Shown: positions 48,304-62,158 of the stretch, piece after piece | Numbering within the stretch: position 1 is the stretch's first letter | How the letters are laid out: each line of letters opens with the position of its first letter | Source: Fusobacterium gastrosuis | GTDB taxonomy: Bacteria; Fusobacteriota; Fusobacteriia; Fusobacteriales; Fusobacteriaceae | Direction of reading: 5' to 3' | DNA length: 64,000 nt | Assembly (NCBI RefSeq): GCF_900095285.1 | Contig: NZ_LT607734.1 | Location: 930,001-994,000, forward strand | Program-made: the position numbers and the translations under genes | Notes under the pieces: model-generated | Told to the model about the DNA's origin: nothing | The model's input: the letters and a program-made list of their open reading frames with translations, nothing else | Databases searched by the model: none

Positions 48304-50175
48304 CTATAAAAATGATTCCAGACAACTGAAAAGCACTGATTCATTTATTGGTTTAGTAATATAAAAATCAAAGCCATAAGGCATATATTTTTCTTTATCA
48401 CCAAGTATTGCTTGGGCAGTCAAGGCTATTATAGGAATGTTTTTTAAAGCTTCATTTTGCTTAATTTTTTCTAAAGCCTGTATTCCATCCATAACCGGCA
48501 TTTGTATATCCAAGAATATGAAGTCAAAGTCTTTATTTTTATCTAAAAGTTTTAAAGCTTCTAAACCATTTTCTACCGTTTCAACTTTTATTGAAGGACA
48601 AACTTCAAGTAATATTTTAAAAAATTCTCTATTTTCTTGCACATCTTCAGCAATTAATATTTTTAATTCCTTATTTAAAAGATTCAAATAATCCTCAAAA
48701 ATACTGTGAAATTTCAAAGTATGTGTTATTTTTTCAAGTTCTTCAATTTCATAGAGTATGGTATTAAAATTTACTTCTTCTTCTTTTAATAAATTAGAAA
48801 TATTTTTTGAAATTTTATAGATAGTTTCAAAATTCATATTTCCATAAGTACCCAATATAATGTGATTAGTTTTTCGCATCTCTTCAATATCATGTTTTTT
48901 AAAGTTTTCTTTAAGATCTTTCACTCTAAGAGGAAGTCTTAAAATACTTTTTAAAAGTATAGATTTCATTTGAAAGTTATTACAATTAAGTAGAGTATTT
49001 ATTATGTTTGAGAAATTTTCATTCTCTCTGGCTTGAATATTTATAGGAATACTCACCTTGAATGTACTTCCTGTCCCTAACTTACTGTTTACTTCAATAT
49101 TTCCGTTTAATGTTTCCAAAAGCTTGTTTACAATACTAAGCCCCAAGCCCACTCCATTTGAATGTTTATTAATCTGTCCAAAACTTTGGAAAATATAATC
49201 TAAATTTTCTTCAGCTATACCTATACCACTATCATGGACATTTATATGCAAAGTTAAATTTTTTAGCTCAACTTCAACAAAAACAAAGCCCTTTTCAGTA
49301 TATTTTATAGCATTATGAATTATGTTCTTAGAAATTTCATAAATTTTCATTTTATCTGAGTAAATATTGATATTTTTTGCAATATCTATTTTAAATGTCA
49401 ATTTTTTTTCTTCAGCAAGTCCGTTATATTCATGATAAATTTCATTAAATAGAGCAGAAAGATCAAAATTTTCAAGATTCAAGTCAACTTTTCCGGATAT
49501 TATTTTTGCAAAATCTAAAAGCTCGTTTGTAAAGTTTAGAAGCTTAAGCCCTGAATTATGGATAATTTCTAATTTATTGAAAGTTTCAGAAGAGAGAGCC
49601 TCAGAATCTTTTAAAAGTCTAGAATATCCAATTATTGGAGTTAAAGGAGTACGCATTTCATGGCTCACTTTTGCTAAAAATTCATCTTTCATTTTACTTG
49701 CGTATTCAGCTTTTTCTTTTGCAACTAAAAGTTCATTAGTCCTATCAGCAACAATAATTTCCAAATTTTTGTTTAGAGAAACTAATTTTGAACTTAACTC
49801 TTCAGCTTTTTCTTTTTCTCTTTTTAATTCTCCTTCTTTTATAAGGATATTGAAAATATCTGTCTTTATGGATGTGAATATATCTAAAAAACATTTTTCC
49901 ATATTTAAAAAGTCATTGCTAATATTTGTTGTGAGATGGGTATTGATATTTTTTATAGTTTCATTGAGCTTTTCTATAAGTAGGAATTGCTCCAATAACA
50001 TAAATTTATTTAATAAAACTAAAGAAAAAAATACTGTGATACAAAAAATAGAAAAAATTAGAAAATTTATAGAGTGAGAAAAATTTATGAGCATGTCTTT
50101 AAAAATAAAAAAAATTAAAATAAAAAATAAAAAAAGAATACCATTCCAAAATGCTAGTTTAACATGTATTTTCAT
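48304..50175 (-). CDS. hybrid sensor histidine kinase
   Basis: The 623-residue protein has two N-terminal membrane segments (about 9-28 and 37-56) with almost no periplasmic loop. A coiled coil (about 112-165) leads to HisKA with phospho-His172 (KVSHEMRTPLTPIIGYSRLL) and an ATPase domain (IIHNAIKYTEKGF, VHDSGIGIAEENL, GVGLGLSIVNKLL). A helical HPt-like region containing NHIILGTYGNMNFET (about 440) comes next, and a C-terminal receiver (LIAEDVQENREFF, FIFLDIQMPVMDG) ends the protein. Lacking a periplasmic sensor, it probably takes its input inside the cell, perhaps from the PocR protein. It is transcribed away from pduB. Confidence 0.9.
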   Translation of the reverse strand: MKIHVKLAFWNGILFLFFILIFFIFKDMLINFSHSINFLIFSIFCITVFFSLVLLNKFMLLEQFLLIEKLNETIKNINTHLTTNISNDFLNMEKCFLDIFTSIKTDIFNILIKEGELKREKEKAEELSSKLVSLNKNLEIIVADRTNELLVAKEKAEYASKMKDEFLAKVSHEMRTPLTPIIGYSRLLKDSEALSSETFNKLEIIHNSGLKLLNFTNELLDFAKIISGKVDLNLENFDLSALFNEIYHEYNGLAEEKKLTFKIDIAKNINIYSDKMKIYEISKNIIHNAIKYTEKGFVFVEVELKNLTLHINVHDSGIGIAEENLDYIFQSFGQINKHSNGVGLGLSIVNKLLETLNGNIEVNSKLGTGSTFKVSIPINIQARENENFSNIINTLLNCNNFQMKSILLKSILRLPLRVKDLKENFKKHDIEEMRKTNHIILGTYGNMNFETIYKISKNISNLLKEEEVNFNTILYEIEELEKITHTLKFHSIFEDYLNLLNKELKILIAEDVQENREFFKILLEVCPSIKVETVENGLEALKLLDKNKDFDFIFLDIQMPVMDGIQALEKIKQNEALKNIPIIALTAQAILGDKEKYMPYGFDFYITKPINESVLFSCLESFL

Positions 50176-50226
50176 AACTCAACCTCAAAAAATATACTTA
50201 AAATTTTTCAAAAAACTAATTTAATA

Positions 50227-50246
50227 AATGACACTCTAATGACACT
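50227..50246. promoter_or_regulatory. 11-base direct repeats, likely response regulator operator for pdu
   Basis: AATGACACT occurs at 50227-50235 and again at 50238-50246, an 11-base period typical of PhoB/OmpR-type sites. A TATTAT at 50256-50261 could be the pdu -10, which puts the repeats over the -35 where an activator would bind. On the minus strand the repeats lie just downstream of the kinase promoter, allowing autoregulation. Confidence 0.6.
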
Positions 50247-50253
50247 ACATAAA

Positions 50254-50282
50254 ATTATTATAGCATAAAAGAAGTTTGTCAA
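50254..50282 (-). promoter_or_regulatory. promoter of the kinase-regulator-PocR genes
   Basis: On the minus strand TTGACA (complement of 50277-50282) is followed after 17 bases by AATAAT (complement of 50254-50259). It overlaps the probable pdu -10 on the other strand, so the two promoters may compete. Confidence 0.55.
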
Positions 50283-50338
50283 TACTTATTTTTAAAATTT
50301 TATTAATAAACATTTATACCGTATTTTAGGAGGTTGGT

Positions 50339-51124
50339 ATGGAACAAAAAATTGTTGAAAAAATGATGAAGGAAGTTATGGAAAAACTAGCAGAAACTAA
50401 ACCTACGGAATCAAACTCTGTATGTTTTGATTCATGCAAGGTAACTGAATTTGTAGGAGCTTCAAAGATAGGGGATACTATTGGACTGGTTATTGCAAAT
50501 GTTGATCCAGCATTACATGAAGCAATGGGAATAGATAAAAAGTATCGTTCTATTGGAATAGTTGGAGCAAGAACAGGAGCAGGACCTCATATTATGGCGG
50601 CTGATGAAGCAGTAAAAGCTACAAATACTGAAATTTTAGTAATAGAACTACCTAGAGATACAAAAGGTGGTGCAGGGCATGGATCTTTAATTATTTTTGG
50701 TTCTGAAGATGTATCAGATGCAAGAAGAGCAGTTGAAGTGACATTATCGAGTCTTGAAGAAAAATTTGGAGATGTTTATGCAAATGATGCAGGACATATT
50801 GAAATGCAATATACGGCTAGAGCATCATATGCTATTAATAAGGCATTCGGAGCACCGCTTGGAAAATCATTTGGATTATCAGTTGGAGCACCGGCTGCAA
50901 TAGGAGTAGTAATGGCAGATACAGCATTAAAAGCTGCCAATGTGGAAGTATTAGCTTATTCATCACCAGCTAAGGGAACATCTTTTTCAAATGAATGTAT
51001 TTTAGCTGTTTGTGGTGATTCTGGAGCAGTTAGACAAGCGATAATAGCGGCAAGAGAAGTTGGAATAAAACTATTAGAAACTATGGCGGGACCAGCTCCA
51101 TCAGCGACAACTCCTTATATTTAA
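50339..51124 (+). CDS. pduB: microcompartment shell protein PduB (tandem BMC)
   Basis: The 261-residue protein is a tandem-domain BMC shell trimer. After an N-terminal amphipathic helix (KIVEKMMKEVMEKLAE) come two BMC repeats, the first with EFVGASKIGDTIGLVIANVD and IGIVGARTGAGPHIMAADEA, the second with GAPAAIGVVMADTALKAANV and CILAVCGDSGAVRQAIIAAR. It forms large shell tiles with a gated pore and in known Pdu systems links the shell to the enzyme core through its N-terminus. AGGAGG lies 5 bases before the ATG. First gene of the operon; no pduA precedes it. Confidence 0.93.
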   Translation: MEQKIVEKMMKEVMEKLAETKPTESNSVCFDSCKVTEFVGASKIGDTIGLVIANVDPALHEAMGIDKKYRSIGIVGARTGAGPHIMAADEAVKATNTEILVIELPRDTKGGAGHGSLIIFGSEDVSDARRAVEVTLSSLEEKFGDVYANDAGHIEMQYTARASYAINKAFGAPLGKSFGLSVGAPAAIGVVMADTALKAANVEVLAYSSPAKGTSFSNECILAVCGDSGAVRQAIIAAREVGIKLLETMAGPAPSATTPYI

Positions 51125-51165
51125 AAAGAAAATTTTATCGAGAATAATTAATAATGGAGGTAAAA

Positions 51166-52830
51166 ATGAAATCTAAGCGTTTTGAAGTGTTAAGTCAAAG
51201 AGGAGTAAATAAAGATGGATATGTAAAAGAATGGCCAGAAGAAGGATTAATTGCAATGAATTCTCCTCTTGATCCCAAACCAAGTATAGTAATAAAAGAT
51301 GGAAAAGTGGTTGAATTAGATGGGAAATGTAGAGAAAATTTTGACCTTTTAGACTACTTTATAGCAGATTATGCAATAGAATTAAAAAATGCAGAAAAAG
51401 TAATGGCTATGGATTCTTTAGAAATAGCTAGAAAATTAGTTGATATAAATGTATCAAGAGATGAGGTTCTTGAAATTTCATTGTCATTGACGCCTGCAAA
51501 AATGGCTGAAGTAATTGGAAAATTGACAGTTCTTGAAATGATGATGGGTGTAAACAAGATGAGAGCAAGAAAAACTCCGTCTAACCAATGTCATGTTACA
51601 AATTTAAGAGATATTCCTGTACAAATAGCCGCTGATGCAGCAGAAGCAGCTTTAAGAGGCTTTGCAGAACAAGAAACTACGGTTGCAGTTGCAAGATATG
51701 CACCATTTAATGCAATATCGTTATTAGTTGGGGCTCAAGTTGGAAGACCCGGAATTTTAACACAATGTGCAGTAGAAGAAGCAACAGAACTATTGTTAGG
51801 AATGAGAGGACTTACAGCATATGCAGAAACAGTTTCAGTTTATGGAACAGAACCAGTATTTATAGATGGAGATGACACTCCGTGGTCAAAAACATTCCTA
51901 GCATCAGCTTATGCATCAAGAGGACTTAAAATGAGATATACATCTGGAAGTGGTTCAGAAGTATTAATGGGATATGCAGAAGGATGTTCAATGCTATATC
52001 TAGAATGTAGATGTTTATTTATGACTAAAGGAGCTGGAGTACAAGGAATTCAAAATGGATCAGTAAGCTGTATAGGAGTTCCGGGAGCGGTTCCAGGCGG
52101 AATAAGAGAAGTATTAGGTGAAAATTTAGTTGCGATGATGCTTGATTTAGAATGTGCTTCAAGTAATGACCAAACATTTACGCATTCAGATTTAAGAAGA
52201 GTGGCAAGATCTTTAATGCAAATGATACCAGGAACAGATTTCATATGTTCAGGATATAGTTCAACACCTAACTATGACAATATGTTTGCTGGTTCTAACT
52301 GGGATGCAGAAGATTATGATGATTGGAATATAATACAAAGAGATTTAAAAATAGATGCAGGATTAAGACCTGTTAGAGAAGAAGAGGTAGTAAGAGTTAG
52401 AAATAAAGCAGCAAGAGCTATCCAAGCTGTATTTAGTGCTCTAGGTTTCCCAGAAATTACTGATGAAGAAGTAGAAGCTGCAACATATGCACATGGAAGT
52501 AAAGATATGCCAGAAAGAGATGTAGTAGCGGATATTAAAGCAGCTGGTGAAATGATGGAAAGAGGAATAACTGGTATTGATATAGTTAAAGCACTTAAAT
52601 CTAAAGGATTTGATGATGTGGCTGAAAGCTTATTAAAACTTATGAAGTTAAGAGTATCAGGGGATCACTTACATACATCTGCAATATTAGATAATGATTT
52701 TAATGTAATAAGTGCTGTAAATGATAAAAATAATTATCAAGGTCCAGGAACAGGATATCAAATATCTGATGAAAGATGGGCTGAATTATCAAATATAGAA
52801 AGAGCAGTAGATGCTTCTACAATAAAGTAG
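51166..52830 (+). CDS. pduC: propanediol (diol/glycerol) dehydratase large subunit
   Basis: The 554-residue B12-dependent radical enzyme subunit is a TIM barrel with RKTPSNQCHVTNLRDIPVQI, EQETTVAVARYAPFNAISLL, SGSGSEVLMGYAEGCSMLYL and GVPGAVPGGIREVLGENL. It converts 1,2-propanediol to propionaldehyde or glycerol to 3-hydroxypropionaldehyde inside the microcompartment. Substrate preference cannot be fixed by eye, because glycerol dehydratases are very similar; the shell genes favour propanediol. The ATG at 51166 has GGAGG 5 bases upstream; the one at 51154 lies before that site. Confidence 0.95.
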   Translation: MKSKRFEVLSQRGVNKDGYVKEWPEEGLIAMNSPLDPKPSIVIKDGKVVELDGKCRENFDLLDYFIADYAIELKNAEKVMAMDSLEIARKLVDINVSRDEVLEISLSLTPAKMAEVIGKLTVLEMMMGVNKMRARKTPSNQCHVTNLRDIPVQIAADAAEAALRGFAEQETTVAVARYAPFNAISLLVGAQVGRPGILTQCAVEEATELLLGMRGLTAYAETVSVYGTEPVFIDGDDTPWSKTFLASAYASRGLKMRYTSGSGSEVLMGYAEGCSMLYLECRCLFMTKGAGVQGIQNGSVSCIGVPGAVPGGIREVLGENLVAMMLDLECASSNDQTFTHSDLRRVARSLMQMIPGTDFICSGYSSTPNYDNMFAGSNWDAEDYDDWNIIQRDLKIDAGLRPVREEEVVRVRNKAARAIQAVFSALGFPEITDEEVEAATYAHGSKDMPERDVVADIKAAGEMMERGITGIDIVKALKSKGFDDVAESLLKLMKLRVSGDHLHTSAILDNDFNVISAVNDKNNYQGPGTGYQISDERWAELSNIERAVDASTIK

Positions 52831-52848
52831 GATATAAGGAGGATAATA

Positions 52849-53517
52849 ATGCACATAGATGAAAAAGTATTAAGAGGCATTATAGAAGATATAGTAAAAA
52901 AATATACGAATGCTTCTACTGATTTAATAAGCAATGCAAAACCTGCATCAGATGATGAGGAAAAAAGTAGAGATGTAGATTTAATAGAAAAGGGTGTAGC
53001 ACAAAAAGGAACTAGAAAAGATGAAGTTGTAATTGCAGTTGCAGCAGCATTTGGCAAATACCAAGTAAAAACTATGACAGGAATCCCACATGGTGAAGTT
53101 CTAAAAGAAATAATGGCAGGTATAGAAGAAGAAGGTTTAGTTCCAAGAGTGGTAAGAATTTTAAGAACATCAGATGTTTCTATTCTTGCAAATGATGGAG
53201 CAAAATTAAGTGGGTCAGGAATCGGAATAGGGCTACAATCTAAAGGAACGACAGTAATACATCAAAAGGATTTATTTCCATTGACTAACTTAGAACTTTT
53301 CCCACAAGCACCACTACTTGAAAGAAAACATTATAGAATGATAGGTAAAAATGCAGCAAAATATGCTAAGGGAGAATCTCCAAAACCAGTTCCACAATTA
53401 AATGATCAAATGGTAAGACCTAAATATCAAGCAATAGCTGCTATGCTACATATAAAAGAAACAAAACATGTTAGATTTAATGCTAAACCAGTAGATTTAG
53501 AAGTTTCTTTTAGATAA
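52849..53517 (+). CDS. pduD: propanediol dehydratase medium subunit
   Basis: The 222-residue subunit begins with a probable encapsulation helix ([20 protein letters not shown]) and an acidic linker. Its core has [60 protein letters not shown] and [20 protein letters not shown]. It helps bind adenosylcobalamin, base-on. AGGAGG precedes the ATG. The length is close to Salmonella PduD (224). Confidence 0.94.
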
Positions 53518-53525
53518 TTTGAAGG

Positions 53526-54038
53526 ATGGTGAATAACTTGGAAAAAGAATTATTAGAAAAATTAATAAGAGATGTTATAGGTGAAATATCAAATCCAACA
53601 TCAATAAATCCAGTGTCAAGAGAAGGAAGAATGACTGACGCAGATTATCCGTTAAGTGAGAAAAAAGCAAGTATTTTAAAGTCAGCAACAGGAAGAACAT
53701 TATCAGAATTTACTATGGAAAATGTAATGTCTGGAAAAATAGGAGCAGCAGATTGTAGAATAGCTCCTGAAACTCTAGAATATCAAGCACAAGTTGCTGA
53801 AAGTTTAAATAGAAAAAGTTTTGCAAGAAACTTAAGAAGAGCAGCAGAGTTAATAGCCGTACCAGATGAAAGAATTTTGGAGATTTACAATTTACTTAGA
53901 CCCTATAGATCAACTAAAAAAGAACTTTTGGCAGTGGCAGATGAATTAGAAAATAAATATAATGCAAAAGTTAATGCTCAACTTGTAAGAGAAGCAGCAG
54001 AACTTTATGAAAAGAGAAATAGACTTAAAGAAGATTAA
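53526..54038 (+). CDS. pduE: propanediol dehydratase small subunit
   Basis: The protein has about 170 residues. The N-terminal helix LEKELLEKLIRDVIGEI resembles an encapsulation peptide. The core has DYPLSEKKASILKSATGRTL, DCRIAPETLEYQAQVAESLN, FARNLRRAAELIAVPDERIL and YNLLRPYRSTKKELLAVADE, all typical of PduE. The start is uncertain: the ATG at 53526 lies inside the AAGGA site, and the TTG at 53538, giving LEKELL, is a good alternative. It lies 8 bases after pduD. Confidence 0.93.
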   Translation: MVNNLEKELLEKLIRDVIGEISNPTSINPVSREGRMTDADYPLSEKKASILKSATGRTLSEFTMENVMSGKIGAADCRIAPETLEYQAQVAESLNRKSFARNLRRAAELIAVPDERILEIYNLLRPYRSTKKELLAVADELENKYNAKVNAQLVREAAELYEKRNRLKED

Positions 54039-54082
54039 TATAGTGGCAATCACTCAATAAATTTAGAAAGTTGGGAGAAAGT

Positions 54083-55896
54083 ATGAAACTTATAGCAGGA
54101 ATAGATATAGGAAATTCAAGTACAGAAACTTGCATTGCCAAGTATGATGGAGATAAAATTATAACTTTAAGCAGCGGAATAGCAAAAACCACTGGTATAA
54201 AGGGAACAAAAGAAAATATAAAAGGTTTATTCTTATCACTTCAAAAAGCTTTAGATAAACTGGATAAAAAGATAGATGATTTATATCTTATAAGAATAAA
54301 TGAAGCAGCTCCAGTTATAGGCGATGTAGCTATGGAAACAATAACTGAAACAATTATAACCGAATCAACGATGATTGGGCATAATCCTTCAACACCGGGA
54401 GGTGTTGGAATAGGAGTTGGGAATTCTGTTCTTATAGATGAAATATTTTCTCAAAATAAAAATGAGGACTACATCGTGGTAGTTCCTAGTAAAATAAGTT
54501 TTGAAAAAGCAGCAGAGATAATAAATAAAGCAAATATAGATGGATATAAAATAACTGGAGCTATTGTACAAAAAGACGATGCTGTCTTAATACACAATAG
54601 AATTAGTAAAAAAATTCCGATAATAGATGAAGTTGAACATATTGAAAAAGTACCCTTAAATATGAAAACTGCAATAGAGGTTGCAGATAAAGGAAAAGTT
54701 ATATCAATGCTTTCAAATCCATATGGAATTGCAACTTTATTCGGATTAAATTCGGAAGAAACTAAAATGATAGTTCCTATATCAAGGGCGATAATAGGGA
54801 ATAGATCAGCAGTTATAGTAAAAACGCCTAAAGGTGATGTCAAGTTAAGAGTAATTCCGTCTGGGAAATTGACTATCTTAGGAGATAAAAAAAGAGAAGT
54901 AGATGTAGATAAGGGTGCTGAAGCCATAATGGAAGCCATAGGAATATGCCAACCAATAGAAGATATCTATGGAGAAACCGGAACTAATGCCGGAGGAATG
55001 CTTGAAAAAGTAAGAATTGTTATGGCTCAGCTCACTGATAAAAATCCAAAAGAAATAAAAATTCAGGATTTATTAGCAGTTAATACTTTTGTTCCAAAAA
55101 AAGTGACAGGTGGAATAGCAAATGAATTTTCCATGGAAAATGCAATAGGCTTAGCTGCTATGGTTAAGGCTGATAAATTGCAGATGGAAAGTATTGCAGA
55201 TGAATTAGAAAAAACTTTAAAGAAAAAAGTTGTAGTTGGTGGTGTTGAAGCAGAAATGGCAATTTTAGGTGCATTAACAACACCGGGTACAGATAAACCA
55301 CTTGCGATAATAGATATGGGAGCAGGGTCAACAGATGCTTCTACAATTACTAAAGATGGGCAAATAACATTGTGTCATCTTGCAGGAGCAGGAAATATGG
55401 TAACGATGTTAATAGATAAAGAATTGGGAATAAATGATTTTGATCTGGCTGAAGATATTAAGAAATATCCACTTGCAAAGGTTGAAAGTCTGTTTCACAT
55501 AAGACATGAAGATGGAAGTGTACAATTTTTGAAAAACCTTTAGATCCAAGTATATTTGCAAGAGTAGTAATACTTAAGGAAGATGAAGGAATGCTTCCTA
55601 TAAATATAGATGAAAGTTTAGAAAAAATAAAGAGAGTCAGAAAAGAAGCTAAAGAAAAAGTATTTGTAACAAATGCTATAAGAGCTTTAGAAAGAGTTGC
55701 ACCACAAGGAAATATAAGAAATATAGATCATGTGGTTTTAGTTGGAGGATCAGCTCTTGATTTTGAAATTCCTCAAATGGTTACGGAAAAATTATCACAT
55801 TTTGGTGTAGTAGCCGGTCAAGGAAATATAAGAGGAATAGAAGGACCAAGAAATGCAGTTGCTACAGGCTTGGCTATCTCTTATAAAGAGGTGTGA
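54083..55896 (+). pseudogene. pduG: diol dehydratase reactivase large subunit, frameshifted by one base
   Basis: The first frame gives an ASKHA-type ATPase (IAGIDIGNSSTETCIAKY; TPGGVGIGVGN; IIDMGAGSTDAST) up to RHEDGSVQFLKNL and stops at 55543. The rest (KPLDPSIFARVVILKEDEG to AVATGLAISYKEV) continues in another frame to 55896. Adding one T to the T5 run at 55526-55530 restores QFFEKPLDPSIFARV and a full-length protein of about 604 residues. PduGH swaps damaged cobalamin out of the dehydratase, so loss would be costly; an error in the sequence is likely. GGGAG precedes the ATG at 54083. Confidence 0.93.
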
Positions 55897-55897
55897 G

Positions 55898-56245
55898 ATG
55901 GAAGAATTTATAGGCATACATATACATATAAATAAAAAAATAGCTTCAAATAGTGTAATAAAATCTATTTTTTGGGGCATAGAAGAAGAGGGAATACCTT
56001 ACAAAACATATGAAATAGAAGAGGGAAATAGTGATAGTTTAGGATATGAAGCATCAAAAATTTCTAAATTGGGTGTAGGAATTGGAGTAGATGACAATTA
56101 TATAACACTTTACTATGAGAAACTTAACTTAGGAGAAGCATTATTTAAGTATAAAACTTTGTCAAAAGAAAATATTTTAAGAAGTTTAGGTACAAATGCA
56201 GCTCGATTGATAAAGGGAGAGCCTTTTACTATACCAAAAGATTAG
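55898..56245 (+). CDS. pduH: diol dehydratase reactivase small subunit
   Basis: The 115-residue protein starts GIHIHINKKIASNSVIKSIF, has WGIEEEGIPYKTYEIEEGNS and a late GTNAARLIKGEPFT, matching PduH/DdrB, which resembles the dehydratase medium-subunit fold. It works with PduG to release inactive cobalamin. The ATG at 55898 overlaps the region of the pduG stop (one base gap), with AAGAGGTG upstream; a longer open frame from 55853 is ignored. Confidence 0.9.
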   Translation: MEEFIGIHIHINKKIASNSVIKSIFWGIEEEGIPYKTYEIEEGNSDSLGYEASKISKLGVGIGVDDNYITLYYEKLNLGEALFKYKTLSKENILRSLGTNAARLIKGEPFTIPKD

Positions 56246-56253
56246 GAGGAGAG

Positions 56254-56661
56254 ATGAGAAATTCAATAGGACTTATAGAGGTTGAAGGACTTGTAGGAGC
56301 TTTGGAAGCAGCAGATGCTGCAGCTAAATCAGCAAATGTAAGTCTTGTAGGTATGGAAACAGCTAAGGGTTCTGGAATGATAACAGTTAAAATAGAAGGC
56401 GAAGTAGCGGCAGTAGCAGCCGGTGTAGAAGCTGGAGCAATGGCAGCAAGTAGACTTACTAAAGTGGTTTCTAAGCATGTAATTCCAAGACCTAATATAG
56501 AAACATATAAATTGATAGATACTTATGTTGAAAAAAAAGAAGTAAAAACTGAAGTGGCTGAAAATGTAGAAGAAGTTGTAGAAGTAAAATTAGAAAATAT
56601 TGAAATTAATGAAGAAATAGAAGAAATCAAAGAAGTTAATAAGAATAAAAAGAAAAGATAA
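56254..56661 (+). CDS. BMC-domain shell protein with charged C-terminal tail (PduK position)
   Basis: The 135-residue protein has a full BMC domain (residues 1-90: GLIEVEGLVGALEAADAAAK, LVGMETAKGSGMITVKIEGE, AAVAAGVEAGAMAASRLTKV, HVIPRP). A 45-residue tail rich in Glu, Lys and Val (VEKKEVKTEVAENVEEVVEV to NKKKR) follows. Salmonella PduK also has a BMC domain plus tail, but that tail holds an iron-sulfur-type Cys motif; here there is no cysteine. The tail looks like a coiled coil or flexible anchor. AGGAGG precedes the ATG. It would form hexameric shell tiles with the tails on one face. Confidence 0.85.
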   Translation: MRNSIGLIEVEGLVGALEAADAAAKSANVSLVGMETAKGSGMITVKIEGEVAAVAAGVEAGAMAASRLTKVVSKHVIPRPNIETYKLIDTYVEKKEVKTEVAENVEEVVEVKLENIEINEEIEEIKEVNKNKKKR

Positions 56662-56681
56662 AAATTTAAGGAGGAATGAAA

Positions 56682-56960
56682 ATGGGAAATGCATTAGGAT
56701 TAATTGAAACTAAAGGACTTGTAGGAGCTATTGAAGCAGCAGATGCTATGACAAAATCAGCAAATGTTGAATTGGTAGGATATGAAAAAATAGGTTCTGG
56801 ACTTGTTACTGTAATGGTAAGAGGAGATGTAGGAGCAGTAAAAGCGGCAGTAGATGCAGGGACAAGTGCTGCTGAAAGAGTTGGTGAAGTTAAATCAACT
56901 CATGTAATTCCAAGACCACATGCTGACACAGAAAAATTATTACCTAAATTAGTAAAATAG
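56682..56960 (+). CDS. BMC-domain shell hexamer (PduA/PduJ type)
   Basis: The 92-residue single-domain BMC protein has the canonical start ([20 protein letters not shown]), [40 protein letters not shown] and [15 protein letters not shown]. The KIGSG pore loop is of the PduA/J type. It should be the main facet tile of the shell. AGGAGG favours the ATG at 56682 over 56676. It is followed by a 180-base gap with two hairpins that may lower expression of the downstream genes. Confidence 0.93.
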
Positions 56961-56986
56961 TAAATAAAAGATTATAAGTTGAAGGT

Positions 56987-57014
56987 AGTACAAGGGAAAA
57001 TTCCCTTGTATTAC
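56987..57014 (+). promoter_or_regulatory. hairpin after the BMC gene
   Basis: TACAAGGGAA pairs perfectly with TTCCCTTGTA over a 2-base loop, with AGT/ACT partly extending the stem. No T run follows. It is a probable mRNA 3'-end stabiliser for the highly expressed shell message (inference). Confidence 0.6.
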
Positions 57015-57077
57015 TAAAATAAAGATTAATTGATGAAATTAGGTTACTGTAATCTTTTAGAATGTTAGATAAATATT

Positions 57078-57101
57078 AGCCGACCCTGTCGGCTTTTATT
57101 C
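57078..57101 (+). terminator. intra-operon terminator-like hairpin
   Basis: AGCCGAC pairs with GTCGGCT over a 3-base loop, followed by TTTTATT. It lies 42 bases before the next coding start and could partly stop transcription between the shell genes and the distal pdu genes. Confidence 0.6.
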
Positions 57102-57142
57102 TAGCAATTTTGATAATAAATTTAGATAGTTGGTGATTTAAA

Positions 57143-57547
57143 GTGGAAGGTCCTAAAGAGTTATTGGAAAATATAATAAAAAGTGTTATAGAAATTACTT
57201 TTTCAAATAAGATTGAAGTTGAAATAAAAGAAGATTTAACTCATAGGGCAATAGAAATTCCTAAATCTATTGCAGATGTGATAGGTTTAAAAGATGGAGA
57301 TGTTGTTAGAGTTAAAACAGAAGGAATAAGAGCACTTATCTTTGAAAATGTAAAGGTTTTTGTAAATAATGAGATAACAAAAAAAAGATTTTATATAAAT
57401 CAATATGAAGCAAAAGCTGCTAATTTAGAAAATGGATTCATTGTTGAAATTTTAGACGAAAATGAAAACGGAAAAATAGCAAATAAAACCAAGAGTGAAA
57501 TACCTTGTAGATTTGAAAAAGATGGAATATACATAAAACTAGTATAA
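57143..57547 (+). CDS. single-barrel PduL-like protein lacking the metal ligands
   Basis: The 134-residue protein starts with an encapsulation-like helix (KELLENIIKSVIEI). Its core IADVIGLKDGDVVRVKTEG, LIFENVKVFV and EAKAANLENG aligns with the second barrel of the phosphotransacylase PduL (usually about 210 residues). The first barrel is absent. Where PduL has its HxHMSP ligand motif this protein has RAIEIPK, and where PduL has MHIDTDEANAA it has FYINQYEAKAA, so the expected His and Asp positions are all replaced. It is therefore probably not a zinc phosphotransacylase. The start is a GTG with only a weak GGTGA site. It is placed by recalled family motifs, not by a search. Confidence 0.65.
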   Translation: MEGPKELLENIIKSVIEITFSNKIEVEIKEDLTHRAIEIPKSIADVIGLKDGDVVRVKTEGIRALIFENVKVFVNNEITKKRFYINQYEAKAANLENGFIVEILDENENGKIANKTKSEIPCRFEKDGIYIKLV

Positions 57548-57551
57548 ATTT

Positions 57552-57583
57552 GTAGATGGAGAGTCATTTTGACTTCTGTCTAC
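57552..57583 (+). promoter_or_regulatory. hairpin between the PduL-like and PduM-like genes
   Basis: GTAGA pairs with TCTAC and an inner AGAGTC/GACTTCT stem forms with a bulge. It lies directly before the GAGGAG ribosome site of the next gene and may affect its translation. Confidence 0.45.
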
Positions 57584-57600
57584 TCCTTTGAGGAGATCAA

Positions 57601-58311
57601 ATGAGCTATGATGAGATAATAGAATTCCTAGTTAGAGAAGTAGGAAAAAGAATAGAAGAAGAGAAAAATAAAGAAAATAATTTAGAAAAAAATAGTGCTT
57701 TGGTTATTATACATGGTGGAAATGGTGATTTATCACAAGTTCTTGTTGAATTAGAAAATTTATCCAAAAATTATGATTTAGAGGTTATTTATACAAGGAG
57801 CGGAAGAAAATTGTCCTATGGAAAAATTTCTCAAGTCATAAAAAATGAAAAAGAACTTAGTTATGAAAATGTTGAAGAATTATTAAAGAATAAATCTTTG
57901 ATACTTTTACCAGTTTTAACGAAGAGTTCGGCAGCAAAGATAGCTTATGGAATAAGGGATACAGAAGCTTCTTATCTTGTTTCAAAAGCTATATTAGCCG
58001 GGAAAATTATAGTTGCAACATATAATTCATGTAGAATAAATGGAAACTCTGAGTATATTAATCAAATCAATTCAAATATAGAAAAATTAAAAAAGTATGG
58101 AATAAGATTTACAGAAGCTAAAAATTTAGCTAATTATGTGGAAAATATTATGAATAAGAAATCAATATATTTAACACATAAAAAATCGATCAGTACGAGA
58201 GATATAGCTAATCTTAGTAATGTCAATATCATAGTTACTAAGGATACAAGTATTACAACTCTTGTGTTGGATAGAGCAAAGGAAGCTAACATTAATTTCA
58301 TTAAGGAATAA
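57601..58311 (+). CDS. PduM-like flavoprotein-family protein
   Basis: The 236-residue protein has an N-terminal helix (YDEIIEFLVREVGKRIEEE) like an encapsulation peptide. A flavoprotein-type Rossmann domain follows (ALVIIHGGNGDLSQVLVELE; LLPVLTKSSAAKIAYGIRDT; AILAGKIIVATYNSCRING). The last 45 residues (SISTRDIANL through VNIIVTKDTSITTLVLDRAK to INFIKE) resemble the end of Salmonella PduM, a Pdu structural protein of unknown function. The flavin- or nucleotide-binding domain seems better kept here than in enterobacterial PduM. GAGGAG precedes the ATG. Its role in the microcompartment is unknown. Confidence 0.65.
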   Translation: MSYDEIIEFLVREVGKRIEEEKNKENNLEKNSALVIIHGGNGDLSQVLVELENLSKNYDLEVIYTRSGRKLSYGKISQVIKNEKELSYENVEELLKNKSLILLPVLTKSSAAKIAYGIRDTEASYLVSKAILAGKIIVATYNSCRINGNSEYINQINSNIEKLKKYGIRFTEAKNLANYVENIMNKKSIYLTHKKSISTRDIANLSNVNIIVTKDTSITTLVLDRAKEANINFIKE

Positions 58312-58331
58312 TTAGGTGGTGAATAAATTTC

Positions 58332-59381
58332 ATGGATTATTCAAAAAAAGAAAGCAACAAAGATCACTATATAAATCTGGGTAAAATTTATACCAAAAGA
58401 GGGGACACAGGTGAAACTTCACTTTTAAATGGGCAAAACGTAAAAAAATCAAGTATACAGGTGGAAGCTTATGGAATAATAGATGAAGCAAATGCAGTTA
58501 TGGGGTTTGCAAAATCTTTAGTAGAAGATGAAGAAATAAAAACTATTCTAACTCATGTGCAAGAAAAATTTATTCTAGTAGGAGCATATTTATCGGCTGG
58601 AGCTGATTATGACACTTGTGTAAAAGAAAAAATTACTAAGCAAGATGTGGAGTATTTAGAAAAACATATAGATGAGTATAATAAAAGACTTTTACCTTTG
58701 TATAAATTTGTAATACCTGGAGATGAAACAAGCTCAGCTAGCCTACATATTGCTAGAACTGTTGTAAGAAGAGCTGAAAGGGCAATTGTTAAATTATCAG
58801 AAAGCATTAAATTTCCAGCAGAAATTTTAAAATATATAAATAGAACTTCAGATTTATTATTTGTTCTTTCAAGAATAGAAGATGATAATAGAACAATTAA
58901 TTATATTAAAAGCAGATTATCTGAGGCACTTAGGGTAGGAGGAACAGATAAAAAAATATATTCTTTTCAAAATTTGACTTTAGAGAATGCAAAGAGAATA
59001 GTTACTGCAGGTGAGTTAAAGGCGAAAGAGTTGAAGAAAGATTTTGTATTTACAGTTGTGAATGCAGAGGGAAATTTGATATTGCAAGAAAAAATGGATA
59101 ATGCAATTCTAATAAGCGTGGAGGTTTCAAGAAAAAAAGCATATACTTCAGCTTCACTTAGAGCAGCAACAGCTGATATGGCAGAAATGATAAAACCGGG
59201 AAGATCTTTATATACCTTACAAAATGATCCTAAGTATGTAATGTTTGGAGGAGGAATACCACTATTTAAAAATGAAATACTGGTAGGAGCAATAGGTGTT
59301 AGTGGTGGTTCTGTTGAAGAGGATTTAGCAGTTGCAAGAGAATGTGAAAGAGAATTTAAAAAGATTTTGGAGGGAAAATAA
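58332..59381 (+). CDS. pduO: PduO: cob(I)alamin adenosyltransferase with C-terminal GlcG/HbpS domain
   Basis: The 349-residue two-domain protein has an N-terminal PduO-type adenosyltransferase (residues about 18-190: IYTKRGDTGETSLLNGQNVK, HVQEKFILVGAYLSAG, FVIPGDETSSASLHIARTVV, RRAERAIVKL, INRTSDLLFVLSR). The C-terminal GlcG/HbpS (DUF336) domain spans about 210-349 (AEGNLILQEKMDNAILIS, MFGGGIPLF, GAIGVSGGSVEEDLAVAREC). It makes adenosylcobalamin for PduCDE, as in Salmonella PduO. The ribosome site GGTGGTG is 10 bases upstream. Its stop overlaps the pduP start. Confidence 0.94.
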   Translation: MDYSKKESNKDHYINLGKIYTKRGDTGETSLLNGQNVKKSSIQVEAYGIIDEANAVMGFAKSLVEDEEIKTILTHVQEKFILVGAYLSAGADYDTCVKEKITKQDVEYLEKHIDEYNKRLLPLYKFVIPGDETSSASLHIARTVVRRAERAIVKLSESIKFPAEILKYINRTSDLLFVLSRIEDDNRTINYIKSRLSEALRVGGTDKKIYSFQNLTLENAKRIVTAGELKAKELKKDFVFTVVNAEGNLILQEKMDNAILISVEVSRKKAYTSASLRAATADMAEMIKPGRSLYTLQNDPKYVMFGGGIPLFKNEILVGAIGVSGGSVEEDLAVARECEREFKKILEGK

Positions 59382-60808
59382 TGACAATCGAAAAAAATAA
59401 ATTGGATGAATTAGTTGGAATGATAATGCAAGAAATGACAAAGACAGGGCTAGTTCAAAATAATACTTGTTCTACTTGTGATACGGTTTCCTCTTCATCT
59501 AAAAATGGTATATATTCATCAATGGATGAAGCTATAAAAAATGCAAAAATAGCTCAAAGGATTCTTTTTGATTCAAAATTGGAATTGAGAGCAAAAATAG
59601 TAAAAAGTATAAGAGAAGAATTGATTAAACACGCGGAAGAACTTGCAAAATTGGGTGTGGAAGAAACTAAAATGGGAAGATTTGAACATAAGTTATTAAA
59701 ACATCAAATAACTATTGAAAAAACACCAGGACTTGAAGATTTAAGACCGTATGCCTTTAGTGGTGATGATGGATTAACTGTTTTAGAACTATCACCCTAT
59801 GGGGTAATAGGAGCTATAACTCCATCTACAAATCCCAGTGAAACAATTATAAACAACAGTATAGGAATGATAACAGCAGGGAATGCAGTAGTGTTCGCAC
59901 CTCACCCCGGAGCAAAAAAGACTTCGATAAGAGCAGTGGAATTAGTAAATCAAGCGGTAGTAAAAGCTGGAGGACCTAAGGATTTAGTAGTTACAATAGA
60001 TAATCCGAGTTTGGAGAATACAAATATAATGATAAATCATCCGGATATAAAAATGTTAGTTGCCACTGGAGGGCCAGGAGTTGTTAAGTCTGTGATGTCA
60101 TCTGGAAAGAAAGCTATTGGTGCAGGGGCTGGAAATCCACCTTGTTTAGTTGATGAAACAGCTAATATCGAAAAGGCGGCTAAAGATATAGTTGATGGAT
60201 GTAGCTTTGATAATAATCTGCCATGTACGGCTGAAAAAGAAGTTGTGGTTGTGGATTCTGTTGCAGATTTTTTAATTTTTGAAATGCAAAAAAATGGTGC
60301 ATACTTATTGAAAAATAAAGAAGATATAAAAAAATTGGAAGAAATAGTTGTAAAAAATGGTGCAGCTAATAGAGATTATGTTGGAAAAGATGCTAAGTAT
60401 ATTTTGAGTAAAATAGGAATAAATGTTGGAGATGAAATAAGAGTTATAATAGCAGAAACAAATAAAGATCATCTGTTTGCAGTTGAGGAATTACTAATGC
60501 CTGTATTACCAATAATAAGAGTAAAAAATACAGATGAAGGAATAGCTATTTGTAAAGATTTGGAGCATGGTTTAAGACATACTGCAATAATTCATTCTAA
60601 AAATATAGATGTTTTAAGTAAGTATGCTAAAGAAATGGAAACAACAATACTTGTAAAAAATGGTCCTTCATACTCTGGAATAGGCGTAGGTGGAGAAGGA
60701 TATAATACTTTTACCATAGCTGGACCTACTGGCGAAGGATTGACTTCAGCTAAGTCGTTTGCTAGAAATAGAAGATGCGTTTTAGTTGGTGGATTTGCAA
60801 TAAAATAG
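59381..60808 (+). CDS. pduP: CoA-acylating propionaldehyde dehydrogenase
   Basis: The 475-residue enzyme turns propionaldehyde, CoA and NAD into propionyl-CoA. The N-terminus (LDELVGMIMQEMTKTGL) is a typical encapsulation peptide, followed by a linker. The aldehyde dehydrogenase core has ELSPYGVIGAITPSTNPSET, VVFAPHPGAKKTSIRAVELV, and catalytic Cys282 in FDNNLPCTAEKEV. The end has NGPSYSGIGVGGEGYNTFTI. The length fits PduP/EutE. It is the last gene of the operon. No PduQ alcohol dehydrogenase gene follows in the window, so NAD recycling must be encoded elsewhere. Confidence 0.95.
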   Translation: MTIEKNKLDELVGMIMQEMTKTGLVQNNTCSTCDTVSSSSKNGIYSSMDEAIKNAKIAQRILFDSKLELRAKIVKSIREELIKHAEELAKLGVEETKMGRFEHKLLKHQITIEKTPGLEDLRPYAFSGDDGLTVLELSPYGVIGAITPSTNPSETIINNSIGMITAGNAVVFAPHPGAKKTSIRAVELVNQAVVKAGGPKDLVVTIDNPSLENTNIMINHPDIKMLVATGGPGVVKSVMSSGKKAIGAGAGNPPCLVDETANIEKAAKDIVDGCSFDNNLPCTAEKEVVVVDSVADFLIFEMQKNGAYLLKNKEDIKKLEEIVVKNGAANRDYVGKDAKYILSKIGINVGDEIRVIIAETNKDHLFAVEELLMPVLPIIRVKNTDEGIAICKDLEHGLRHTAIIHSKNIDVLSKYAKEMETTILVKNGPSYSGIGVGGEGYNTFTIAGPTGEGLTSAKSFARNRRCVLVGGFAIK

Positions 60809-60840
60809 TTTTTTAGATTTTCACATATTCATTCTAAAAG

Positions 60841-60878
60841 AGAACTGTCATAGATTAATATCTATGACAGTTCTTTTT
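60841..60878 (+). terminator. terminator of the pdu operon
   Basis: AGAACTGTCATAGA pairs with TCTATGACAGTTCT over a 6-base loop, followed by T5. Confidence 0.93.
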
Positions 60879-60910
60879 GCATGTATAAAAAAAATAAAAA
60901 TTTAAAATTG

Positions 60911-62158
60911 CTATATTAGCTTTAATATATAAGCTAGGAAAAATACTCCAAAACCAGTTAAATAAATAAGCCCTAATATTGATATGTAATATAAAAATCC
61001 TTTTATATGCCCTTCTTTCCCATTAACTAAAGAGAAATTTAGATAAGAATAAATAGGAGCTGATAAAAATGAAGCTATCATAGCAAAATACATCAATTTA
61101 GCCACATTTCCTGCAAGTAAAAATACAATAAGAATCCCAACTATTGAAGTTATAGATACCCATATATTCAATTGAGTTTTGGATTCATTATTTTCCTTTA
61201 AAATAATTCTAAGTGCTTCATTATTTACACGAGAATAACCATCAATTACAGTTATTGTAGTTCCAAAAAGGCATAGGAATGCAATGAAAGCTATTAGTAA
61301 TCTAGACCAATCTCCAAAGGCTGAAGCATACATTCCAATAAATTGTTTAATATAGGCAGCACTTGCTGCTTCTATTTTTTCACCAGAACCATATTGAATT
61401 AATGCTCCCAGTGCAAGGAATATAAATGCTAAAATAGCTGTTCCTATATATCCGACATTAAAATCAAATATACCATCTACAACTGAAACTTTTTCTGATT
61501 TTCTTTTTTCAATAGACCACATAGAATTGATAGCTGATATCTCAATAGGTGCAGGCATCCAACCCATCAGCGAAATGATAAAAGTTAAAGCTGATAATTT
61601 CCAAGGAGATGGTTCTATAAAATTAGGATCTATATGTGGTGTTTTAAACATTGCTATTATTACAGCAAGCACAGTTGCAAGTGTTAATGAAATCATAACA
61701 GCTTTTGATAAGCTATCCATAAATTTATAACCACCAACAAGTATCATTATCCAAATACCTACAATTATAGCAGCAGATAATTGTGCAATTGATAAACCAA
61801 ATCCATTTGGGAAAATATTATATAGTATAGCAGCAGTTAAAATTCCCACAGCTGCTGTATTAACAAAAGCTGAAAATATGTTCATTATAAAAAATAACCA
61901 AAGATAAATTTTCCCCTTTTCTTCATATCCTTGAATTAAGCTTTTATTATTTTCTAAAGCATATTGAGCACCATATCTAAAAAATGGATATTTAAAAAGA
62001 TTAACTAATAAGACAATAATTGCTAATTGCCATCCATAAATTGCTCCTGCTTGTGTTGATGAAACGATATGAGAACCTCCAACAGCAGCAGAAGCCATTA
62101 GAATACCTGGTCCCATCGCCTTCATCTTACTTTGAAATGTTGATTTTTCTTCTGTCAT
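60911..62158 (-). CDS. Nramp-related permease with non-canonical metal site
   Basis: The 415-residue membrane protein has about 11 hydrophobic segments and the LeuT-like Nramp layout (MKAMGPGILMASAAVGGSHI, STQAGAIYGWQLAIIVLLVN). In true Nramp transporters TM1 carries DPGN and TM6 carries MPH. Here the TM1 position reads AVGGSH and TM6 reads GWMPAPIEISAIN, so the usual manganese/iron ligands are missing. It may move another ion or an organic substrate. GGAGG lies before the ATG, with a TGC-TATAAT extended -10 (complement of 62197-62205) upstream. It is transcribed divergently from a TonB-dependent receptor. Confidence 0.8.
   Translation of the reverse strand: MTEEKSTFQSKMKAMGPGILMASAAVGGSHIVSSTQAGAIYGWQLAIIVLLVNLFKYPFFRYGAQYALENNKSLIQGYEEKGKIYLWLFFIMNIFSAFVNTAAVGILTAAILYNIFPNGFGLSIAQLSAAIIVGIWIMILVGGYKFMDSLSKAVMISLTLATVLAVIIAMFKTPHIDPNFIEPSPWKLSALTFIISLMGWMPAPIEISAINSMWSIEKRKSEKVSVVDGIFDFNVGYIGTAILAFIFLALGALIQYGSGEKIEAASAAYIKQFIGMYASAFGDWSRLLIAFIAFLCLFGTTITVIDGYSRVNNEALRIILKENNESKTQLNIWVSITSIVGILIVFLLAGNVAKLMYFAMIASFLSAPIYSYLNFSLVNGKEGHIKGFLYYISILGLIYLTGFGVFFLAYILKLI

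Follow-up and report, generated by a model that had tools for sequence, protein, structure and literature searches.

On the forward strand of a 64,000-nucleotide stretch of the Fusobacterium gastrosuis genome (contig NZ_LT607734.1, positions 930,001 to 994,000; the window), an operon for a Pdu-type bacterial microcompartment (BMC) encodes, in the place of the phosphotransacylase PduL, a 134-residue protein that we refer to as X (57143-57547 of the window). Our analysis supports X as a descendant of PduL. Judged by its residues, X is a pseudoenzyme derived from PduL: it cannot serve as a PduL-type phosphotransacylase and ought not to be recorded as a functional PduL. We place at about even odds (a probability near 0.5) the fuller reading that X is the former PduL of this operon, which lost its inserted second domain and has been kept as a noncatalytic barrel with a helix in the Pdu compartment.

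The gene, its coordinates, and its motifs were all as the initial annotation had described them, and the reading frame contains neither stops nor frameshifts in the one genome carrying it. The proposed homology to PduL was borne out by profile, synteny, and structure model. Pfam family PTAC (PF06130) matched X with an E value of 3.4e-8 (33.9 bits versus a gathering score of 25) and was the sole Pfam family above its cutoff, with four others below theirs (best, Molydop_binding at 9.5e-4). The NCBIfam model PRK15070 (phosphate propanoyltransferase) also matched X at 1.7e-9, with 37.7 bits being far below its 209-bit cutoff. X lies between an upstream BMC-domain gene and a downstream flavoprotein-like gene, a slot occupied by a PduL of 206 to 210 amino acids in all eight related operons that we compared (five from genomes of one genus, two from another that includes Ilyobacter, and one from a third). 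The barrel of X is 41 to 43% identical to the PduL proteins of these relatives, versus 77 to 97% among the relatives themselves, and identity over the whole protein is 35.6% to the nearest group, versus 71.3% between the relatives' groups. This drop is the largest among the operon products, and X has diverged far more than its neighbors.

Consistent with the initial annotation, every metal ligand of PduL is missing from X. In PduL, Zn1 is bound by His48, His50, and Glu109 together with the sulfur of coenzyme A (CoA), and Zn2 is bound by His157, His159, and His204 (PMC4784909). All six residues are invariant in the 38 fusobacterial PduL rows that we aligned, which by our count represent 32 distinct genes once six operon rows (of eight) that duplicate other loci in the alignment are discounted. 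The three Zn1 ligands are gone from X along with domain 2, and the three Zn2 positions read A36, E38, and Y84, so that the motifs RHIHM and IHLDMD of the relatives appear as RAIEI and FYINQY. Because no zinc ligand is left, PduL-type catalysis by X would be precluded. Other positions were altered as well: Arg194 corresponds to F73, the possible propionyl-pocket positions Ser45 and Ala154 read K29 and T33, and by our count by eye, X keeps three of the nine barrel positions that are invariant in a 17-row PduL alignment.

X had been described as half-length and as matching only the second barrel of PduL. The PTAC match is indeed confined to profile positions 101 to 175 of 176, but the remaining piece is not half a protein. 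Domain 1 of PduL is built from residues 37 to 46 and 155 to 224, with domain 2 inserted between them (PMC4784909), and X therefore retains a complete barrel. Its layout comprises a helix, a first strand, a four-residue junction, the equivalent of PduL residues 156 to 224, and a 28-residue extension. By this comparison, X would be domain 1 in its entirety with domain 2 missing almost to the residue, with the placement of the helix and first strand depending on a modest N-terminal alignment. The C-terminal extension gave no convincing sequence match (best E value, 0.55), and AlphaFold2 (AF2) predicted it as additional strands at low confidence.

Structure prediction and superposition on PduL, which the initial annotation had proposed, agreed with this assignment. 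A first AF2 job for X was poor, with a mean predicted local distance difference test score (pLDDT) of 50.3. The second reached a mean of 59.4 with a predicted template modeling score of 0.51; by ten-residue block, pLDDT was 61 to 77 over residues 31 to 100 and 35 to 55 in the first three blocks. This model superposed on residues 155 to 224 of PduL 5cuo chain A with a Z score of 9.0 and a root mean square deviation (rmsd) of 1.2 Å over 70 residues, and the next-best structure entries reached a Z score of 6.0. Because the AF2 input alignment included PduL fragments, the fold model cannot count as evidence separate from the sequence. With Foldseek, the model of X found nothing at an E value of 0.001 or below, and its matches to chains titled double-psi beta-barrel (DPBB; best E value, 0.012) come from a model of moderate confidence.

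We considered whether a frameshifted first barrel might lie hidden upstream of X and rejected this idea, as all three forward frames of the gap before X contain stops and a full-length PduL query hit the window only from its residue 136 onward. A DNA search with the gap returned nothing beyond short and weak hits, the best being 33 bp elsewhere in the same genome (E value, 5e-4) and another being 31 bp (E value, 0.075), reversed and beside PduL in two other loci (L077 and L072).

An encapsulation-type helix at the N terminus of X, noted in the initial annotation, is likely, with modest support from alignment. The N terminus of X aligned better with the PduL N termini of the relatives than with domain 2 in seven of eight local alignments and outscored 998 of 1,000 shuffles. 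The register given in Table 1 was found with six of the eight relatives, with two of the seven that prefer the N terminus using another register. Local alignment preferred domain 2 in the remaining relative, and MAFFT also placed the N terminus of X on domain 2, which is therefore a less favored alternative source of this segment. The PduL encapsulation peptide docks in the groove formed where PduA hexamers meet, and in the PduL dimer one of the peptides may be left available to a different partner (PMC11157265). Enzymatic signal sequences have also been proposed to serve assembly beyond targeting (PMC12108088).

The evidence supports the earlier suggestion that the X coding sequence is maintained, as judged from a single genome. 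A branch codon model on a fixed tree that we set ourselves, using 71 barrel codons, gave log likelihoods of -1038.44 with a free omega on the X branch, -1044.00 with omega set to 1 (twice the difference, 11.1), and -1049.04 with the background omega. With 21 N-terminal codons added, the respective values were -1406.72, -1413.40, and -1413.24. Since the free omega is favored over both alternatives, X is accelerated and constrained at once. The estimate for the X branch was about 0.14, the size of which is not trustworthy because the branch length sits at the bound of the optimizer. In simulations of neutral decay, 97 conserved codons stayed free of stops in 1 to 7 of 4,000 runs to 40% identity (about 0.03 to 0.18%) and in 15 to 29 of 4,000 runs to 50% identity, and 71 codons did so in 19 to 61 of 4,000 runs to 42% identity (0.5 to 1.5%). 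The GC contents of X at the three codon positions (0.43, 0.24, and 0.11) reflect ordinary coding periodicity. Because neutrality was rejected and neutral decay rarely left a frame free of stops, these results support coding constraint on X for much of its divergence.

Several observations weigh against X being a retained component of the compartment. Only a single genome yielded X, and two congener genomes contain neither PTAC nor the dehydratase. Plain Foldseek placed 5cuo 18th (E value, 0.03; TM score normalized to the query length, 0.44; rmsd, 1.1 across 62 columns), and the AF2 model combined the mean pLDDT and the low helix-region values given above with an input alignment that held PduL rows. 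As for the helix, the N terminus of PduE scored nearly as high as that of X (32.9 versus 35.0), the hydrophobic moment was not significant (132 of 2,000 shuffles reached it), and the Salmonella PduL signal sequence is itself weak or nonfunctional according to PMC12108088. In the codon model, the bounded branch length and fixed tree are joined by an average that spans any time during which X was still an enzyme. Finally, the operon itself is eroded. PduG carries a frameshift just upstream of 55543 that breaks it in two, and relatives have intact copies. PduQ, EutN, a 185-residue BMC-type protein named by position, and EutJ, present in all eight relatives, have no counterpart in the operon (window searches at an E value of 1e-4 or below), and a terminator-like hairpin stands before X.

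Because of this erosion, a serious rival, and the main one, is that X is a dead PduL in a shrinking operon, with its frame open by chance or constrained until recently. The divergence of X, the largest in the operon, its occurrence in one genome, the gene losses, the PduG frameshift, and the hairpin all fit this explanation, which we take seriously but lean against. The X frame stayed open while PduQ, EutN, a BMC gene, and EutJ vanished from the operon, and the rejection of an omega of 1 on the X branch, the rarity of stop-free neutral decay, and the ordinary codon periodicity argue against a relic. Moreover, both parts of PduG are 74 to 76% identical to the nearest group, similar to the 75% between the relatives' groups. 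The PduG lesion is therefore either recent or an assembly error (a variable tract is possible) and does not date the changes in X.

X might instead be a noncatalytic regulator that binds CoA, acyl-phosphate, or another ligand, for which the malic enzyme MaeB, with its nonfunctional PTAC-type domain, offers a loose precedent of the Pta rather than the PduL type. We consider this sensor role improbable since X differs at the Arg194, Ser45, and Ala154 positions and lacks the domain that carries Phe116, Arg103, and Ser127; the same changes make the CoA-binding role raised in the initial annotation unlikely. A residual or split enzyme, in which another protein supplies the missing barrel, gained no support from our searches and is very improbable, as the genome has no second PTAC-family match at an E value of 1 or below and X has none of the three ligands of its own barrel.

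Returning to X as a former PduL retained in the compartment, we propose that the PduL of this operon gave rise to X when its inserted domain 2 was lost. An RHxH motif opens each of the two PduL barrels, and recombination between these two copies could plausibly have excised domain 2. The product would have been retained as a folded, noncatalytic single barrel, as the model predicts, with its likely helix placing X in the Pdu compartment and binding shell or core partners as that of PduL does. The small barrel may then serve as a protein-binding spacer or adaptor. A scaffold, shell-associated, or adaptor role is thus possible for X, as the initial annotation had suggested. CoA recycling would fall to Pta, the only other phosphotransacylase found in the genome. 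We hold only tentatively, a little short of even odds, that precise domain excision turned a phosphotransacylase into a metal-free, single-barrel structural or adaptor protein of a BMC and that the organism runs PduP without a compartment-type phosphotransacylase.

The rest of the genome, a single 1.82-Mb contig that is 99.95% complete, bears on these possibilities. The search for a full-length PduL that the initial annotation had called for found none: X alone matched the PTAC profile in the whole genome, with no second match at an E value of 1 or below. One Pta (PF01515) is encoded at 1,644,586, one gene away from an acetate kinase-like gene (kinase identified by eye), and by eye lacks an N-terminal extension. 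A separate eut locus (L073) within 785 to 805 kb holds the only EutN found and four further BMC genes (eut names assigned by eye). In 12 Fusobacteria genomes, an Eut cluster is reported to occur without other phosphate acetyltransferase genes, for which a HAD-family substitute was proposed (PMC6620236). A compartment without PduL thus has precedent in the phylum.

Across 98 Fusobacteriota genomes, PTAC was above the cutoff in 39, including this one, and PduC was matched in 20. The proposed check on whether the ligand losses recur in other Fusobacteria turned up no such case: all 47 other PTAC matches above the cutoff are full length, and all 32 distinct genes whose sequences we checked keep the six ligands. 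Matches below the cutoff to the same second half of the profile occurred in ORFs of about 700 amino acids in three genomes (G003, E value 0.002; G049, 0.2; G025, 0.39). One genome (G004) contains the dehydratase without PTAC; shell-gene queries were unmatched at this locus and likewise at the G005 one, for which reason G004 was not taken as a loss comparable to that of X. Scanning genome contigs with X revealed no further X-type copy, and scanning with the flavoprotein alignment recovered two operons, both already in the comparison set. Of the viral scans, one had no matches and another gave a PduL fused to an acetate kinase-like part (kinase identified by eye). A second kind of diol/glycerol dehydratase locus also turned up in Fusobacteria (L079 and L080; PduC identity, 72 to 73%), and in the stretch read there, BMC shell queries were unmatched.

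The operon runs in the order PduB, PduC, PduD, PduE, PduG, PduH, two BMC proteins, X, the flavoprotein-like protein, PduO, and PduP (Table 1). The X frame is intact as initially annotated, but the operon is neither fully compact nor free of lesions, given the PduG frameshift and a 182-bp spacer with two hairpins (56961-57142) before X, where relatives have about 8 to 12 bp. A weaker hairpin follows X within 57548-57600 (z score, -2.3), and the hairpins around X possibly form an attenuation point dividing the operon. Neither hairpin before X recurs elsewhere in the window. Terminator-like sites in the region were not above shuffles (5 versus a mean of 3.8), promoter-like sites were at chance level (50 versus 49.1), and an Rfam search gave two subthreshold matches only. 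The sites of the missing genes correspond to 50175-50339 upstream (PduQ), 58311-58332 inside the operon (EutN), and 60808-60911 downstream (BMC gene and EutJ); the EutJ query had one weak, unrelated-looking match in the window at 2678-2986. A gene for a 251-residue aquaporin-type protein is close in three of the eight relatives and distant in three others, and the upstream two-component genes share 59% and 62% identity with their L066 counterparts.

Table 1. Features of X and of the surrounding Pdu operon (window coordinates)
Feature	Coordinates	Strand	Basis
PduB shell protein	50339..51124	+	Comparison; annotated pduB in Ilyobacter
PduC, PduD, PduE diol dehydratase	51154..54038	+	Comparison with relatives
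PduG, frameshift-split into 54071-55543 and 55591-55896	54071..55896	+	ORFs, profiles, comparison
PduH	55853..56245	+	Pfam, comparison
BMC-domain shell protein, PduK-like by position, carrying a C-terminal tail	56254..56661	+	Pfam, comparison
BMC-domain shell protein, upstream neighbor of X	56676..56960	+	Pfam, comparison
Strong hairpin (-19.9 kcal/mol, z -6.2) between BMC gene and X, not followed by a T run	56985..57014	+	Folding
Terminator-like hairpin (z -5.6 when folded as 57070-57100), 48 bases before X	57078..57094	+	Folding
X, PduL-derived single-barrel protein, 134 aa, GTG start	57143..57547	+	ORF, Pfam, alignment, structure model
Residues 1-21, probable encapsulation-peptide helix (helix at 4-20 in AF2, with low confidence)	57143..57205	+	Local alignment, shuffles, AF2
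Residues 22-30, counterpart of PduL beta-1 (the N-terminal strand of domain 1)	57206..57232	+	Alignment, AF2, PMC4784909
Four-residue junction at absent domain 2 (about 108 aa)	57233..57244	+	Alignment, domain limits from PMC4784909
Remainder of domain 1 barrel, residues 35-106, with A36, E38, Y84, F73	57245..57460	+	Alignment, model
28-residue C-terminal extension, absent from 8/8 relatives	57461..57544	+	Alignment
Flavoprotein-like protein, PduM slot; resembles PduM profiles and TIGR02536 with scores below the cutoffs	57601..58311	+	Profiles
PduO adenosyltransferase	58332..59381	+	Pfam, NCBIfam
PduP-type CoA-acylating aldehyde dehydrogenase	59381..60808	+	Pfam, NCBIfam, comparison

Among known systems, X most resembles PduL itself (PF06130, 5cuo), with which it shares descent, the slot between the BMC and PduM-slot genes, the domain 1 barrel, and a probable helix. 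X differs from PduL in the absence of domain 2 and the six zinc ligands, the replacement of Arg194, and the added C-terminal extension. The barrel arrangement of the X model is also that of single-barrel folds such as designed and natural DPBB proteins, the p97/VCP N-domain, and aspartate decarboxylase, but these gave Z scores of 6.0 or less, a marginal sequence match (phmmer E value of 0.027 to 7dg7), and occur in other contexts. The C-terminal domain of MaeB is likewise a retained, nonfunctional PTAC domain, but is of the Pta/EutD type with a fold other than that of PduL (PMC4784909). PduM and residues 1 to 37 of PduB have been implicated in joining core and shell (PMC9132943), with the exact role of PduM being disputed (PMC12108088). 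As a nonenzymatic protein with an encapsulation-type helix, X might work alike, but no search linked X to either protein and the PduM slot is occupied by the next gene.

The product of this PduM-slot gene, as in the same slot of L066, L032, L070, and L071, is of flavoprotein type, with PF02441 above its cutoff in L066 and L032 and below it in the window. The C-terminal part of these flavoproteins matches PduM families below the cutoff (best, 3.7e-8 in L070) and also matches the Eut-associated TIGR02536, which a gene in the eut locus of this genome (L073:16421-17068) matches at 6e-31. PduM has been described as being without known homology outside Pdu compartments (PMC12108088), and this similarity may point to the origin of PduM.

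Our searches of the open-licence PMC literature found no description of a single-barrel or ligandless PduL. The architecture of X suggests that domain 1 of PduL is able to stand alone, in line with its discontinuous construction. If our reading is true, X would be a PduL pseudoenzyme providing a natural test of which parts of PduL serve assembly and which serve catalysis, and it would bear on how compartments recycle CoA without PduL.
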